32,604 nt of DNA from an uncultured Prochlorococcus sp. Its GTDB lineage: Bacteria > Cyanobacteriota > Cyanobacteriia > PCC-6307 > Cyanobiaceae. The stretch's first letter is position 1; each line of letters begins with the position of its first letter. Shown here piece after piece: positions 10,982 to 32,604 of the stretch. The stretch is taken from NCBI GenBank assembly GCA_902589115.1, contig CACIRS010000015.1:1-32604 (forward strand). Reading direction: 5' to 3'. The position numbers and the translations under genes were made by a program. The notes under the pieces are model-generated. The model was given only the letters and a program-made list of their open reading frames with translations. It was not told the DNA's origin and did no database searches.

Positions 10982-10997
10982 CTAAATTGAGATATAG

Positions 10998-11092
10998 GTG
11001 ACCCGGAATCCACGCCTGCTTTAAGCATCCCTTTTGGCTGCTACCTTCCGGTCCTGACCAGGTTTAGGCGTCAAGGCCGCATGGGTCCGAGT
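10998..11092 (-). ncRNA. ffs: Signal recognition particle RNA (4.5S type)
   Basis: On the minus strand the conserved apical SRP domain is clear: GGTCAGGACCGGAAGGTAGC followed by AGCC, the Ffh-binding tetraloop and asymmetric bulge. Outer segments close the hairpin: GGACCC near the 5' end (complement of 11083-11088) pairs with GGGTC near the 3' end (complement of 11000-11004). The ends are approximate. It lies between ftsZ and panB, antisense to both. Confidence 0.95.
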
Positions 11093-11099
11093 CGATTAA

Positions 11100-23447: not shown

Positions 23448-23663
23448 TATACAATAACAATACATAACGCCCTAACCTTTGATTAAAATCTTAGAATTAA
23501 TAGATAGCTAATAGTTCTAATGATATGTTTTTTTTTTAATTTCTTGCTCTTTAACTTATTGCATTACGAATTTAATTTTTCTATCCAATGTTTGATTGTG
23601 TTGCTTAAACTACCTTCCAAAATTGTTTTAATTAAATACAAGCATCAGTAAAAAAATATGCGT

Positions 23664-23725
23664 AAAAAAAAAGGCGCCCTCATCGAGCAGCGCCCATAAC
23701 GACAAACTTGTGTGAGGAGTGTCGT
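23664..23725 (-). ncRNA. Yfr1-motif small RNA, copy A
   Basis: On the minus strand this predicted RNA of about 62 bases has a 5' hairpin and a terminator. The hairpin is ACGACA paired with TGTCGT around loop CTCCTCACACAAGTT. The terminator stem, GGCGC with GCGCC plus an inner CTC/GAG, is followed by nine T. The 11-mer ACTCCTCACAC (complement of 23710-23720) equals the ultraconserved Yfr1 core. Unlike classic Yfr1, the core lies in a hairpin loop and not in a single-stranded linker. It is identical over 61 bases to copy B, in opposite orientation. Confidence 0.8.
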
Positions 23726-23731
23726 AATTGG

Positions 23732-23760
23732 TTTCTAATCAAAAGTGGCAACAAAGTCAA
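23732..23760 (-). promoter_or_regulatory. Predicted promoter of copy A
   Basis: On the minus strand, TTGACT (complement of 23755-23760) and TAGAAA (complement of 23732-23737) are spaced by 17 bases. The expected start, about 7 bases further, is 23725, exactly the first base of the 5' hairpin. Confidence 0.65.
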
Positions 23761-24116
23761 GTGATTTAATTAGAGATATCCTTATAGCCAGGAACCAATA
23801 CTTGGAATACCTGCAGCCAGTGCATTTCAATGAAATAAAAAGATTCTTTCAAAAGTTTCAGGAGTCTTGGAATCAGATGGGATCTCATTAGGAGTTCATG
23901 CTTCTTGCAGAACCAAGTTTTGGCGCATTATTGGGCTTTTCCCATAGAGCCACAAAGGAACCTTTTAGGACACCCTTTTTTAGAACGAATAGCAACTTAT
24001 TTCATTTAAGATTCGTTGAGGTCCTGCTTGCTTATCGTCAATGAACTTACCTGGCCTGCTGGATTGTATTATTATGGTTAACTTCAAAGACTTCCTTACT
24101 CGGGACTAAAGGTCAT

Positions 24117-24314
24117 ATGGCAAAGAAAGGTACCAGGATAGTTGTCACCTTAGAGTGCACTGAATGTCGTTCTGCGCCCAGTTCAGAGAAACGCTCTCCT
24201 GGCGTTTCCAGATACACGACTGAAAAGAACAGAAGAAACACAACAGAAAGGTTGGAACTTAAAAAGTTCTGTCCCCAACTCAATAAAATGACTATCCACA
24301 AGGAAATTAAATAA
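24117..24314 (+). CDS. rpmG: 50S ribosomal protein L33
   Basis: This 65-residue protein matches bacterial L33 end to end ([18 protein letters not shown] at the N-terminus, [28 protein letters not shown] at the C-terminus). The first zinc pair CTEC is intact, but the second reads CPQL with only one Cys, so zinc binding may be lost. In Prochlorococcus and other cyanobacteria rpmG is usually followed by rpsR; here over 600 bases of spacer follow and no rpsR is in the window. It lies inside the segment bounded by the inverted RNA copies A and B. It could be a second copy or a moved single copy. Confidence 0.95.
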
Positions 24315-24972
24315 TTATTTGAGAATGCATTGCAAAACAAACCTTTTTGAGAATCCAATTATTTTTTAACCCAAAGGGCTTCATAGAAACACTCTTCTAG
24401 TGTAATTGCGATTTTGTCTTGAAGCCCATGATTTACTAGCGAGCCAGGTTCCTTTTGATGAATGATAACTTGCCTTTATGGCATACTGATGCCTTGCAAT
24501 GAATGAATGAATAAACAGGCAAAAATGTACTTGTGATTAACCCTTTAAAAACAACTATAAGTAGTTGTTTTCTTAAAAAGATACATTGTCCAGTAAGAAA
24601 TTCCGCAAGAACAGAATTTCTACCTTGAAAGAAGTAATTCAGGGAGGATTCTCTTAACGCCTCTTCTTAATATGAGTCATATAAAGGTTCGTATAATTAG
24701 CAACTACCAACAAGAGCAAGAGGAAAGTGTTTAAATTCAATTTTTTGGAGCATATTGATCAGTTAATTATAAATATATGAAATCAACCTACTTAATTAAA
24801 ACCTAATTGATAGTGCTATGCACCCTGATCTTGAAAGGATTTATTTGGTTTCGTCTTTAAGAAGAGAGTGAGATTTCAGCAATTCCCTTTATAGCGAGAA
24901 CTCTGATCTTTCCTGCCTTAACTCCTGGACTGGTTCTAATCGATTTAGAGCAAGTAAGTGGGAATTCCCGTT
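24315..24972. other. Long spacer after rpmG with one hairpin
   Basis: There are 658 bases without a supported gene. The visible elements are a run of ATGA/ATGAATGAATG units near 24497-24511, the hairpin at 24550-24569, and a GGGAATTCCC palindrome near 24959-24968. In most Prochlorococcus genomes this position after rpmG would hold rpsR. Confidence 0.5.
24550..24574 (+). terminator. Intrinsic terminator-like hairpin
   Basis: AACAACTA (24550-24557) pairs perfectly with TAGTTGTT (24562-24569) around loop TAAG and is followed by T, TCTT. It lies 236 bases after rpmG and could end its transcript or that of an unseen RNA. Confidence 0.5.
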
Positions 24973-25212
24973 CTAGTTGCCACCATTGCAGTAGTGAACT
25001 GCATTAGATGCACTTTTACCGCTTTCCCTAACTTCTTCAACGCAGGAAGCAAAAACCTTTGCTTCCTGCTTCACTAAGCAAAAATTTAAAGCAATCGCAG
25101 CAAGAGATAACGCAGAGATAACGCTAGTTCCTAATTGGATGACTCCATAGGCAAGCATTGCTCCTTTCTTACTTCCACAATGCTTCTTGACATTGTTGTT
25201 TTCTTCAGTCAT
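24973..25212 (-). CDS. Small membrane protein, 79 residues
   Basis: This protein has a polar N-terminus (MTEENNNVKKHCGSKKGAM), then one or two hydrophobic segments (GVIQLGTSVISALSLAAIALNF, about 25-46), and a C-terminal part with two cysteines (CVEEVRESGK, HYCNGGN). I recall short proteins of this style recurring in Prochlorococcus; function unknown. I prefer ATG at 25212 to the TTG just before it. It is downstream of minus-strand RNA D, whose terminator separates them. Confidence 0.75.
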   Translation of the reverse strand: MTEENNNVKKHCGSKKGAMLAYGVIQLGTSVISALSLAAIALNFCLVKQEAKVFASCVEEVRESGKSASNAVHYCNGGN

Positions 25213-25296
25213 CAAACTTTGAAGTGAATAACAAGAATCCTATGAAATCCTTCCGTCTTCCGTGAGATGGAAGGAGAGGGGAAAACCGACAGGCAC

Positions 25297-25361
25297 AAAA
25301 AAAGAGTGACCCAACCGGCATCACTCTCTCTTCTAACGACTGTTTGGGGACAAATCGCTTT
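25297..25361 (-). ncRNA. Predicted small RNA D with intrinsic terminator
   Basis: On the minus strand a promoter-like pair predicts a start near 25361. The RNA would contain TTGTCCCCAAAC and end in a 7-base-pair hairpin (AGAGTGA/TCACTCT, loop TGCCGGTTGGG) with seven T. No open frame of useful size fits within it. It resembles no RNA family I can name. The 11-mer TTGTCCCCAAA also occurs in the hairpin loop at 21344-21374, on the same strand. Confidence 0.6.
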
Positions 25362-25367
25362 TATCTT

Positions 25368-25396
25368 TTTACACATGCAGGGACTGAATGAATCAA
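25368..25396 (-). promoter_or_regulatory. Predicted promoter of RNA D
   Basis: On the minus strand, TTGATT (complement of 25391-25396) and TGTAAA (complement of 25368-25373) are spaced by 17 bases, ahead of the hairpin-terminated RNA. Confidence 0.5.
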
Positions 25397-25433
25397 AAAG
25401 TCCTTATGCCCTAACAATGAAATTAAAATTGTT

Positions 25434-25462
25434 TTGACTCAGGGGCACTCAAGCAGTAAAAC
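25434..25462 (+). promoter_or_regulatory. Predicted promoter of copy B
   Basis: TTGACT (25434-25439), a 17-base spacer and TAAAAC (25457-25462) predict initiation near 25469, the first base of the RNA hairpin. The layout equals that of copy A although the spacer sequence differs. Confidence 0.65.
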
Positions 25463-25468
25463 AAAAAC

Positions 25469-25529
25469 ACGACACTCCTCACACAAGTTTGTCGTTATGG
25501 GCGCTGCTCGATGAGGGCGCCTTTTTTTT
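25469..25529 (+). ncRNA. Yfr1-motif small RNA, copy B
   Basis: This predicted RNA of about 61 bases is identical to copy A. The 5' stem is 25469-25474 with 25490-25495, and its 15-base loop completes ACTCCTCACAC at 25474-25484. The terminator hairpin at 25499-25521 is followed by T8. No ORF is present. Yfr1 is an abundant cyanobacterial sRNA whose core pairs with porin (som) mRNAs, so the same targets are possible here. Confidence 0.8.
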
Positions 25530-25590
25530 CTTTGCGCACAATTCGAAAAATTCAGTTATGTTCATCTGATAATTAACCATTATTTGAACA

Positions 25591-25908
25591 ATGCTTCGCA
25601 AGCAAGAAAAAAATGCAATTACCCGAGGCTTGCTACTCGGCCTTGGATGGGGATGGGGCTTAGATAGGTTTTATGAGGGAGATAAGAAAGGAGGAATTCT
25701 CTCAATTATTGGATGGGCGATCATTTTTACAAGTTTCTTTTATTTAAAGTGCTCAGGGATTGAATACGTAGATGGAGTGAAGGATTATTCCAGCTACAGT
25801 CCTAATCCATTAATTATTCTTCCTTTTATCGCTGGCTTATATGGTGTGTATTTAATTATTAGAAAATCATTCAAATTGGCAAAACAATTTGAAACAGCAG
25901 AAGATTGA
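25591..25908 (+). CDS. TM2-domain membrane protein
   Basis: This 105-residue protein has two membrane helix regions. The first carries the TM2-like GLGWGWGLDRFYEGDKKGGI turn (Gly-rich helix, then D-R-F-Y), followed by LSIIGWAIIFTSFFYL. A further helix, PLIILPFIAGLYGVYLI, precedes a basic tail. TM2 proteins are small bacterial membrane proteins of unclear role. The start is ATG at 25591, 62 bases after the terminator of copy B. The gene ends just before copy C. Confidence 0.8.
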   Translation: MLRKQEKNAITRGLLLGLGWGWGLDRFYEGDKKGGILSIIGWAIIFTSFFYLKCSGIEYVDGVKDYSSYSPNPLIILPFIAGLYGVYLIIRKSFKLAKQFETAED

Positions 25909-25953
25909 TAATCATCACTTAAATCAAAAACTCAAAAGAAGCAGCATAAAACT

Positions 25954-26013
25954 ACGAGACTCCTCACAGAAGTTTCTCGATATTGGTTCTGCTCGATAAG
26001 GGCACCTTTTTTT
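25954..26013 (+). ncRNA. Yfr1-motif small RNA, diverged copy C
   Basis: It has the same layout as copies A and B. The stem is CGAGA (25955-25959) with TCTCG (25975-25979) around loop CTCCTCACAGAAGTT. A terminator-like GGTTCTGCTCGATAAGGGCACC with seven T follows. Relative to A/B the stem changed C-G to G-C on both sides, so pairing is kept, and only one loop base differs. The terminator stem has one mismatch. The promoter is weaker (CATAAA at 25945-25950, no clear -35). Confidence 0.68.
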
Positions 26014-26052
26014 ATGTGCTTGCCAAATAATGAGTTATGCGTAAAAATACCC

Positions 26053-26144
26053 ACCGTGAGGAGTTGAGATCCTCCGAGCAGTGGAAACAAGGAAACACGC
26101 GCTCTTTGATCTCCAAGAGAACCTGCCTTTGAGCAGGTTTTTTT
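26053..26144 (+). ncRNA. Yfr2-family (cyano-1) small RNA
   Basis: The tandem GGAAACA motifs at 26083-26089 and 26091-26097 (GTGGAAACAAGGAAACAC) are the hallmark of the Yfr2 family. An upstream hairpin, GAGGA/TCCTC (26058-26062 with 26070-26074), and a final terminator, ACCTGC/GCAGGT at 26121-26138 followed by a T-run, complete the structure. TTGCCA (26020-26025) and TAAAAA (26042-26047) give a plausible promoter. GTGAGGAGT at 26056-26064 is the exact complement of the shared loop core of copies A, B and C. Confidence 0.85.
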
Positions 26145-26399
26145 GTGCCTTGCAATCCTTTCAAGTTTTCCAGTATTCGTCCCACTCATCCTGCAGTTCA
26201 GCACTGATTTTTTATTTTCCAAAAGGTTTTTCTTTAAGAACCCATCATGGGTGATCGTCCTCTTTTTCCCATGGCGGAGCAACGCTTTCCAATAAAAAGA
26301 CAAATGAACCGATTACGAAAAAAAAGCAATCATTAACTTCTTGCTCCCAAGGATCTCTTTAGTTATGTAATTAATGAATCTGTAGAAACCTATGTTTCA

Positions 26400-27150
26400 T
26401 CAAAGTAGAAAAAGGATTGCTCCTGCAGCGAATCCAGAGAGATGACCAATTAAACTGATCCCAGGTCCAAATGAATAAAGCACTCCCATAACTGTAAGAA
26501 CTGTCATTATCTGTCGGCACTGGTAATTACTCCGCAAACCTATCTGAACGCCAAGAAAAGTTTGCTTTCCATAAATAGATGCTAAAAGAATAAATGCATC
26601 TATGCCATAAAGAATGGCACTAAAACCTAAAGAGAGTGACATTGCATTCCTTGCTATAAAAATATCGTAGAACCAATTTAAAGAGACTTGGACTGGGATC
26701 AGAAACGCAATTAGTGTCAGAAAAAATGCCCTATTAGTTAGACCAAGTGTCATAAAGAAGTATCGGGCAATTATAATCCCACCTGTATTAAATAGTAAAT
26801 GCCTAAAATCACCATGAAAGAAATGTGCTGTAATTATTCTGTGTGGTTGAGAGAGCATTCCCCCTGACCAATAAGCGAAGTTTGATTTAGCAAGTAAACC
26901 GAGGATATCACTTGCTATAAAAGCAACTAAACATATCAAAAAAAGGTATTAAATACTGCCAATCATCTCTGGAGATAGTGATCCCTGAAGACAGTGATCT
27001 ATATCCTTGATAAACTTTATTTCCACTGTTTCTTCGTTGTTTAAAACATATTGCAAAAGAACCGCACTTTATACATACCAACCTTCCTCCTAAAGAACGA
27101 TCATTCTTGATATCTGTTGAACCACATGCTTTGCATTGATGGATTGCCAT
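26400..27150 (-). pseudogene. Zinc-ribbon rhomboid protease, split by a frameshift at A7
   Basis: The 5' frame (27150-26908, 80 codons) encodes a zinc ribbon (CKACGSTDI near residue 6, CIKCGS near 26). The overlapping 3' frame (to 26400) encodes a rhomboid-family intramembrane serine protease: HFFHGDFRHLLFNTGG, catalytic-type GFSAILYG, and GHLSGFAAG with the catalytic His. Removing one base from the seven-A run at 26938-26944 (T7 in the mRNA sense) joins them into WQYLIPF-LICLVAFIASDIL, a continuous membrane helix, giving about 249 residues. The second frame has a stop just upstream and only a TTG start. It may be a real mutation, a slippery site that restores the frame, or a sequencing error. 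Confidence 0.75.
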
Positions 27151-27270
27151 TATCTAATCAATGCTTTTAGTCTTGAGGCATCTTAGAAGAAGTGCCATTG
27201 AAACTCGACCGAAAGGTTCCTTTCAAGAGCAACCAATTTGAGACCGTGTGGTCCCGTGTGAATGAGTTTG

Positions 27271-27291
27271 AACGGAGAGGGTGTAATTCGA
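27271..27291 (-). repeat. Partial tRNA-Ser 3' end, att-like copy 1
   Basis: AACGGAGAGGGTG matches the 3' end of tRNA-Ser(CGA) plus two flanking bases (28837-28849) over 13 of 13 bases, then ATTCGA of the T-loop matches after two changed bases. This is 19 of 21 overall. It is the expected remnant of an attachment site. Confidence 0.65.
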
Positions 27292-27353
27292 CTTGGTTTT
27301 ATCTGAGAACTCATGAGAAAACATGAGAACAATTTTGTGGAAATTGGGCAAAA

Positions 27354-27426
27354 ATCCCACAACAAATCCCACAACAAATAAAAATCCCACAACATTCTCA
27401 AAAATCCCACAACAAATCCCACAACA
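27354..27426 (+). repeat. Five direct repeats of ATCCCACAACA
   Basis: Perfect 11-base copies start at 27354, 27366, 27384, 27404 and 27416 (steps 12, 18, 20, 12). The spacers are too short and unequal for CRISPR. The position 70 bases inside att-like copy 1 suggests arm-type recombinase sites. A minus-strand frame through this array encodes only a repeat artefact. Confidence 0.85.
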
Positions 27427-27613
27427 CTTCCGGTGTCTCAGTAAACCGATTTCGTTGTCGTTGATTTCACTTAACTCTGCTTAATAGAGAGAATTACGCC
27501 AAAATATGAGAGACAAGACCGAAGTCATCAACGAGTTTGGCGACCTTTGACCAGTTCTATGAGGCACTAGAGCATCAAAGATAAATCTAAATGCGAAAAG
27601 TGCTTCTGTTGAA

Positions 27614-27641
27614 TTGGTCTCATGAGCACTCATGAGACCAA
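27614..27641. repeat. Perfect 12-base-pair inverted repeat
   Basis: TTGGTCTCATGA (27614-27625) and TCATGAGACCAA (27630-27641) flank GCAC. It lies directly beside att-like copy 2 at 27643. No T-run follows on either strand in the right place for a clear terminator, so a protein-binding or recombination site is as likely. Confidence 0.8.
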
Positions 27642-27642
27642 A

Positions 27643-27655
27643 AACGGAGAAGGTG
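27643..27655 (-). repeat. Partial tRNA-Ser 3' end, att-like copy 2
   Basis: AACGGAGAAGGTG matches 28837-28849 at 12 of 13 positions. After it the sequence diverges from the tRNA. Together with copy 1 it suggests successive insertions at the same tRNA gene. Confidence 0.5.
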
Positions 27656-27716
27656 TCCGTTAAGTAGAGACTACATGGTCCTTCCTGGAACCAACTTCGG
27701 GTTATTTTTTGGTCTT

Positions 27717-28838: not shown

Positions 28839-28923
28839 CGGAGAGGGTGGGATTCGAACCCACGGACAGTTACCCATCAAACGATTTCGAGTCGTTCGCT
28901 TTCGACCACTCAGCCACCTCTCC
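28839..28923 (-). tRNA. tRNA-Ser (CGA)
   Basis: On the minus strand GGAGAGG (28923-28917) pairs with CCTCTCC (28846-28840). The anticodon stem is AACGA/TCGTT around loop CTCGAAA with anticodon CGA (complement of 28887-28889). A long variable arm follows, as in class-II tRNAs, and the T-arm contains GGTTCGAATCC. The discriminator is G (28839). No CCA is encoded; six T follow the discriminator directly. Its 3' end appears to be an integration target. Confidence 0.97.
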
Positions 28924-31413: not shown

Positions 31414-31446
31414 AAAAAAATAAGCGCCTTCTTTGAAGGCGCTTAT
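31414..31446 (-). terminator. Terminator of the porin gene
   Basis: On the minus strand a 12-base-pair stem (complement of 31420-31431 with 31435-31446, core AAGCGCCTTC) with a 3-base loop is followed by about seven T. It lies 30 bases after the porin stop codon. Confidence 0.9.
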
Positions 31447-31475
31447 AGATTTTAAGAACTAATAAATAATCTAAA

Positions 31476-32604
31476 TTAGAACTTAAATGTGGTCTTAACA
31501 AGTCCACCAAAAATGTCGTCACTATTGTCAGAAGCACCGTTATATGTATCGGTACCACCAAAAATAGCTGGAGTAACTGTGATGTTGTCAGAAACCTTGA
31601 AGTCATAGTAAGCCTCCCAGACGAAGTTATCGTCAGCAGGATCACTAGAGTTTCCACGAATGTCGGTAGCATACTGACGCTGACCGAAAGCAACACCAGC
31701 GGTATTGCCATCAACGAAGGCATCTTTCCACATCAAACCAACCATCCACTGGGCTGTTGCTTCAGTGGAACCAGTTGCCTTGTCATCATCAACATTGGAG
31801 ATGTCATAGCCAAGCTGAATTGCAGGAACTGCACCTGTTTCAAGAGGCTTCCAATAAGCTCTTAATCCATAGCTAGTGGAGTTACCTGTGCGCTGGTCTC
31901 CAGCATCTGTTGAGTAGTAGTCATACCAGTTTTTGCAAGACTCTGCTCCATCGGTCTTGTTGCACATTTCTTTAGATACTGCCAAAGAAACTTGCCAACG
32001 GGGTGAACCATACTCAAGTTTGGTCAACCACTTGGACTGAGCATCAGTAAGGATACCGCCGCCATCTAGATCAGCTTTAGTAGCTCCCTTAGAAGCATAG
32101 TTAGTACTTACCGCCCATCTTGCCTGGCTGCGATCTTCAACTTGCTGAATCCAAGCGACACCAAAACCACCATCGGTACTGGAGCCATAAGCAGCACCAT
32201 TACCACCCAAAGCAAATTGCTTCAAGACTGGCTTATAGATGGAAGGAGCACTAGCCAACATGTAGTAGTTCTCGATCCTTGGACCAACCCAAACTTTGAA
32301 GGATTCTCCAACAGGGAATTGGTACCAAATCTTGTCTATATTCAAGGAGTTACCACTAGTGTTAGTAGCAGCTAGATAAGTACCTGTTTTCTTGTTGCCA
32401 AATGTCTGGCCAGAAACAAAGTTACCTGTCTTGATCCTTGTGTACAGCAAATCCTCTCCAGTGAAACTGGTATTTAGATTTATCTGTGTTGTGTAGTTGA
32501 AAGTAAGTGCCTCATTGTCATTATCGGCGTCGTTTTCAACAGCACCCATAACAAAAGTGGTTTTACCACTAAGTTTTGTGGTGGTTGAAAATTGACCAGC
32601 CTCA
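31476..32604 (-). CDS. SOM-type outer-membrane porin, 3' part (gene continues past the window)
   Basis: About 375 codons are open to the window edge, starting with EAGQFSTTTKLSGKTTFVMG. The family is the cyanobacterial SOM/OprB-like porin: an N-terminal SLH domain (outside the window) and a C-terminal beta barrel. Visible features are alternating amphipathic strands, Asp/Gly-rich loops, SFKVWVGPRIENYYML, and a C-terminal GGLVKTTFKF ending in Phe, the usual barrel-assembly signal. It allows small solutes through the outer membrane. The internal Met near 32549 is not the true start. In other Prochlorococcus, som mRNAs are repressed by the small RNA Yfr1, whose core motif occurs about 6 kb away. 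Confidence 0.9.
   Translation of the reverse strand, partial: EAGQFSTTTKLSGKTTFVMGAVENDADNDNEALTFNYTTQINLNTSFTGEDLLYTRIKTGNFVSGQTFGNKKTGTYLAATNTSGNSLNIDKIWYQFPVGESFKVWVGPRIENYYMLASAPSIYKPVLKQFALGGNGAAYGSSTDGGFGVAWIQQVEDRSQARWAVSTNYASKGATKADLDGGGILTDAQSKWLTKLEYGSPRWQVSLAVSKEMCNKTDGAESCKNWYDYYSTDAGDQRTGNSTSYGLRAYWKPLETGAVPAIQLGYDISNVDDDKATGSTEATAQWMVGLMWKDAFVDGNTAGVAFGQRQYATDIRGNSSDPADDNFVWEAYYDFKVSDNITVTPAIFGGTDTYNGASDNSDDIFGGLVKTTFKF

Follow-up and report, generated by a model that had tools for sequence, protein, structure and literature searches.

A small RNA gene of an uncultured Prochlorococcus sp., found in a DNA stretch of 32,604 nucleotides (hereafter the window), belongs by model match to the Yfr10-type family and lies directly upstream of a Yfr2-family RNA gene. 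The window holds two further genes of the family; the three are referred to as copies A, B and C (Table 1). The best overall explanation of copy C, to which we give a probability of about 0.7, is that of a Yfr2-linked Yfr10-type RNA decaying beside two intact copies. Yfr10 pairs through its motif with Yfr2, which it binds, and with mRNAs; Yfr2 competes with these targets, and darkness raises Yfr10 (PMC6778093). As a Yfr2-linked member of this family, the RNA of copy C displays the Yfr1 motif ACUCCUCACA in a short hairpin loop and has an intrinsic terminator at its end. Published studies of the family lead one to expect that the loop pairs both with mRNAs and with the GUGAGGAG in the 5' part of Yfr2. 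Selection keeps the hairpin, on which presentation of the loop depends, and this accounts for the covarying stem pairs. Copies A and B are intact, and the promoter, terminator and core end of copy C seem to be deteriorating; copy C is probably little expressed alone, or only by read-through toward Yfr2.

Table 1. Positions in the window of the three Yfr10-type genes, the parts of copy C and neighbouring features.
Feature	Position	Strand	Evidence
Copy A, intact Yfr10-type RNA gene	23665..23726	-	R1 90.9 bits; inverted repeat with copy B, 100%
Copy B, intact Yfr10-type RNA gene	25468..25529	+	R1 89.8 bits; Rfam Yfr10 25.6 bits (cut-off 43)
Small ORF of 105 aa, same strand as copy C, its end lying 45 nt before that gene	25591..25908	+	ORF list
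Copy C promoter position, degraded (TTAAAT-17-CAGCAT)	25919..25947	+	Best hexamer sum 6/12
Copy C, Yfr10-type small RNA gene (62 model positions)	25953..26014	+	R1 64.2 bits, E 7.8e-14
Copy C hairpin 1, 5' arm CGAGA	25955..25959	+	Sequence; 5/5 pairs intact; G25958 pairs with C25976
Copy C core 11-mer ACTCCTCACAG (consensus ACTCCTCACAC), base 11 = G	25959..25969	+	Sequence
Copy C hairpin 1, 3' arm TCTCG	25975..25979	+	Sequence; pair count in alignment
Copy C terminator hairpin and T run	25985..26013	+	Pairs 25988/26003 (T-C) and 25994/25998 (C-A) broken
Yfr2-family RNA: Cyano-1 at 26050-26117, then a strong terminator	26050..26149	+	RF01701 40.2 bits (cut-off 41)

Family Assignment of the Three Copies

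A covariance model, R1, was built from 29 homologues, with all copies of the window excluded. Its matches to A, B and C (90.9, 89.8 and 64.2 bits) are far above chance, the next best reaching 18.4 bits in the window and 18.3 bits in the whole genome. The R1 loci of four other sampled genomes are Rfam Yfr10 (RF02362; 59.7–78 bits, cut-off 43), each with Cyano-1 downstream; a fifth sampled locus, L272, is neither Rfam Yfr10 nor followed by Cyano-1. In the window, RF02362 gives 25.6 bits for B and 20.9 bits for A and leaves C unlisted, the gathering score of 43 not being reached, a shortfall due to the model having been made from strains outside this group. Because R1 meets RF02362-positive loci, and because of the loop architecture, the three copies are filed as Yfr10-type, not as Rfam-passing members.

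In Yfr1 the motif is single-stranded between two hairpins (PMC6778093), and in Yfr10 it lies in the loop of a hairpin that precedes a terminator (PMC6778093; PMC2518516). All three copies carry it in a loop atop a stem with five of five pairs formed. The hairpin is CGACA-CTCCTCACACAAGTT-TGTCG in A and B and CGAGA-CTCCTCACAGAAGTT-TCTCG (25955-25979) in C, with a C-G pair turned into G-C (G25958-C25976). With respect to ACUCCUCACAC, the motif is identical at 11 of 11 bases in A and B and at 10 of 11 in C, the last base being G. Both the stem change and the substitution at core base 11 had been reported in an earlier note on this DNA, and reading the sequence confirms them. Its label “Yfr1-like” is to be withdrawn, and membership of the copies in Yfr1 was rejected: the motif sits in a loop, a search of the window with RF01116 (threshold 38 bits) gave no match, and the real Yfr1 of the genome, its only match to that model (59.6 bits), is on contig C22 (G000:C22:920-974). 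Yfr10 is characterised by expression as an RNA of approximately 78 nt that binds Yfr2, and for copy C such a duplex is predicted.

The family is multicopy in some lineages, with up to seven model matches in genome G019 and six in G078, the weaker of them doubtful or decayed. Locus L248 bears at 851 (+) a further element resembling an RNA, in which the core occupies a hairpin loop (GGACACTCCTCACATAATTAGTCC) and the terminator is unrelated. A core match on contig C23 was discarded as chance, as it falls within a coding sequence that looks radA-like by eye and has no hairpin. Of the pattern matches in non-cyanobacterial genomes and viral contigs, many can be put down to chance, given a pattern of 16 bases and 257 billion bases searched.

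Copies A and B and Their Surroundings

The identity of A (23665-23725, minus strand) and B (25469-25529, plus strand), which lie in inverted orientation, covers the 61 transcribed nt and no more; their flanks are unrelated except for a promoter pattern in common. Judged from the sequence, this identity would be the result of recent copying or gene conversion of the small RNA unit. The promoters are TTGACT-17-TAGAAA for A and TTGACT (25434-25439)-17-TAAAAC (25457-25462) for B, both scoring 9/12. Neither A nor B has an adjacent Yfr2 homologue, and copy C does. As the assembly is approximately 71% complete, further Yfr10-type copies may exist.

The three Yfr10-type genes and the Yfr2 gene lie in an ORF-poor stretch (23450-27700) with a tRNA gene nearby (28839-28923); this stretch may be a genomic island. 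A tandem array of AAATCCCACAACA units is found between ORFs at 27349-27426, and a bacterial small SRP RNA gene at 10997-11093 (minus strand, 59.2 bits). Directly after an iron uptake porin gene (31476-32549, minus strand), a terminator-like hairpin (31415-31474, minus strand) is the weak R1 match of 18.4 bits, the core motif being absent from the part shown. A link between the core and the porin gene was rejected: no core-complementary site was seen at the start of this gene, where the contig ends.

The Yfr2 Partner Downstream of Copy C

Immediately 3' of copy C lies the Yfr2-type RNA, which the earlier note had overlooked together with the two broken pairs of the terminator. Its sequence GTGAGGAG is complementary to the core of copy C, and its fold has a z-score of -3.5. 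Both the GGAAACAAGGAAACA loop and the 5' core-complementary motif are present, the score of 40.2 bits being just under the RF01701 cut-off of 41; near-identical sister Yfr2 loci in L193 and L210 reach 44.1 and 41.5 bits. Copy C and 13 other loci alike have 122-124 nt between the core and the GGAAACA repeat. Yfr10, Yfr12 and Yfr18 have been described as adjoining Yfr2, Yfr4 and Yfr5 (PMC2518516), and Yfr2 homologues downstream of Yfr10 homologues in high-light strains (Lambrecht et al.). The second Yfr2 of the genome, on contig C18 (47.8 bits), has no evident Yfr10 beside it in the stretch read.

Covariation of the Hairpin

The family search yielded 90 copies (84 distinct), aligned by sequence alone; they were gathered by similarity to B with the filter CTCC[TC]CAC, a procedure to which core bases 2-9 owe part of their conservation. 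RNAalifold missed hairpin 1 on the 84 rows, and pairs were thus counted for the named structure instead. Among the 84 homologues, stem pair 1 is CG in 55 and GC in 24 (three rows unpaired), and stem pair 4 is CG in 70 and GC in 9 (five rows unpaired). Two terminator pairs vary in the same way, pair 3 (CG 66, TA 13) and pair 4 (GC 70, AT 10). Changes compensating each other on the same branch numbered 27 on a tree made without the tested columns (null mean 4.2, maximum 12) and 18 on a tree of all columns (null mean 2.1, maximum 9), the count of independent events being uncertain, as trees of 60-nt RNAs are weak. In a 29-row alignment, whose rows were hand-picked among intact copies, both sides change in seven pairs; none of 500 shuffles gave as many, and slid structures gave at most one.

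Since stem pairs 1 and 4 both switch between C-G and G-C in homologues, the hairpin, and not the core alone, is under selection, as had been claimed; the support for this comes from the whole family rather than from copy C. On the other hand, the earlier note had placed the double substitution within copy C, and eight relatives (L178, L192, L193, L197, L209, L210, L211 and L221) bear the same CGAGA/TCTCG stem with an ordinary core. On the all-column tree, copy C groups with L209, L193 and L197, then with L178, L210 and L211, and the nearest carriers of the G-C allele occupy the same Yfr2-linked locus. The two matching substitutions therefore predate copy C and go back to an ancestor of the group, since relatives share them at that site; the allele is inherited and gives no evidence of a derived paralogue.

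Private Changes of Copy C

Copy C differs from L193 at 5 of 62 positions, all private to it: core base 11 (C to G), a G to T immediately preceding the stem of the terminator, a G to T within that stem by which pair 25988/26003 is lost, an A to G on the loop side of the terminator, and a G to A by which pair 25994/25998 is lost. The predicted energy of its terminator is -5.9 kcal/mol against a median of -11.6; only three of the 84 are weaker, and one of those owes its rank to the way in which the T run was cut. Its promoter, announced earlier as weaker, indeed scores 6/12 against 9/12 in A and B; this value is within the seven lowest of the 90 copies and equals the commonest value of shuffled sequences, that is, the chance level. 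The conserved TAGAAC-like box, in register in the three copies, is TAGAAA in A, TAAAAC in B and CAGCAT in C. At the core, position 11 is C in 75 of the 84 homologues, A in 4, T in 3 and G in 2.

The surrounding DNA is 97-100% identical to two sister strains over the spacer and Yfr2. Against L210, the RNA of copy C differs at 7 of 62 positions, compared with 1 of 151 in the spacer and Yfr2 (Fisher 0.0008); against L193 the counts are 5 of 62 and 3 of 151 (Fisher 0.048), both tests being post hoc, chosen after the alignment had been seen, and based on two sister loci only. The divergence of the RNA beside a near-identical spacer and Yfr2 is best explained by constraint that has been relaxed locally, on the Yfr10 unit, and copy C is most likely a Yfr10 linked to Yfr2 and in decay, alongside two intact copies with which it may be redundant. 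Other decayed copies are seen in relatives, namely in L211 at 524 (without terminator), L191 at 5042, L201 at 3731 and L176 at 1431.

Alternative Explanations

Against decay, core bases 1-10, all five stem pairs and the T run of copy C are intact, its duplex with Yfr2 is predicted at -18.9 kcal/mol, equal to that of L193, and the promoters of the published family are diverse; by these predictions copy C may still work. A fully working Yfr10 with a promoter of a type missed by the hexamer scan would agree with the intact stem and core 1-10, and also with the 18 of 90 family copies whose promoters score 6-7/12; we regard it as rather unlikely, as the otherwise conserved TAGAAC-like box has become CAGCAT and the terminator ranks among the weakest. 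Quite unlikely, in our view, is a joint transcript of Yfr10 and Yfr2, produced by read-through from upstream, with copy C forming its 5' portion and the loop of copy C masking Yfr2 in cis until processing. For MED4, a Yfr10-Yfr2 precursor of 270 nt has been published (PMC2518516), folding of the RNA 25952-26149 predicts cis pairing of ACUCCUCAC with GUGAGGAGU (z -3.8), and the weakness of copy C's own promoter and terminator would fit, as would the end of the 105-aa ORF 45 nt upstream. This ORF, which had no match in a Pfam search, is a possible source of read-through; the cis pairing, for its part, is a prediction and is expected of any complementary pair placed in cis.

The earlier note had taken the G at core position 11 as the sign of a paralogue with a different target range. 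Nine of the 84 homologues do deviate from C at that position, the targets of Yfr1 and Yfr10 in MED4 are partly different (PMC6778093), and a canonical UGUGUGAGGAG partner would be bound less tightly, the predicted duplex energy going from -22.0 to -18.4 kcal/mol. Nevertheless, ACTCCTCACAGAAGTT is confined to this genome among the 201 family genomes searched by pattern, base 11, when it is C, pairs with neither Yfr2 found in this genome, and the duplex with the neighbouring Yfr2 has the same energy as that of L193 (C at position 11), position 11 adding little with this Yfr2. As that energy is unchanged, the core change neither abolishes pairing with Yfr2 nor proves new targets. A retuned RNA would predict neither a broken terminator nor a lost promoter, and both are present; the changes in promoter, terminator and core end fit relaxed constraint better, and a functional paralogue with shifted targets is thus unsupported and, we judge, very improbable. 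Coevolution of base 11 with the neighbouring Yfr2, in which the G would face a C, was also rejected: that C is likewise present in the Yfr2 of L169, L171 and L193, whose cores carry an ordinary C, and the energy does not change. We retain decay of the Yfr2-linked copy, which would pair with Yfr2 in vivo. A wider scenario is highly doubtful: that low-light-type Prochlorococcus keep a conserved, multicopy Yfr10 family turning over by copying and decay, with one copy fixed 122-124 nt from Yfr2, and that copy C and its anti-sRNA form one cis-folding transcript.

Significance and Comparison With Known Systems

Besides correcting the label of the copies from Yfr1 to Yfr10, the analysis extends the Yfr10-Yfr2 tandem, known from high-light strains, to many more Prochlorococcus genomes, and the covariation shows selection on the loop-presenting hairpin within this group. 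The published view is that structure is poorly conserved across Yfr10 homologues (PMC6778093); within this group, which the Rfam model misses, it is well conserved. Strains in which intact and decaying copies coexist are a natural experiment on the copy number that the Yfr1/Yfr10/Yfr2 network requires.

Among known RNAs, Yfr10/Yfr18 (RF02362) is built like copy C, with ACUCCUCACAC in a loop atop a stem, then a terminator and a Yfr2-family gene directly downstream. The stem, the loop tail (AAGTT) and the terminator sequences of A, B and C are different, hence their low RF02362 scores, and the family is here multicopy per genome, with some copies away from Yfr2. Yfr12 of MED4 is likewise a mutated variant (PMC2518516), in which other bases have changed (CAUAUAC); its expression has been shown, whereas copy C is a predicted gene. 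Yfr1 (RF01116) shares the 11-nt motif with copies A-C and differs in presenting it unpaired between two hairpins. Yfr2/Cyano-1 (RF01701), the partner of copy C, bears the complementary GUGAGGAG and no Yfr1 motif.
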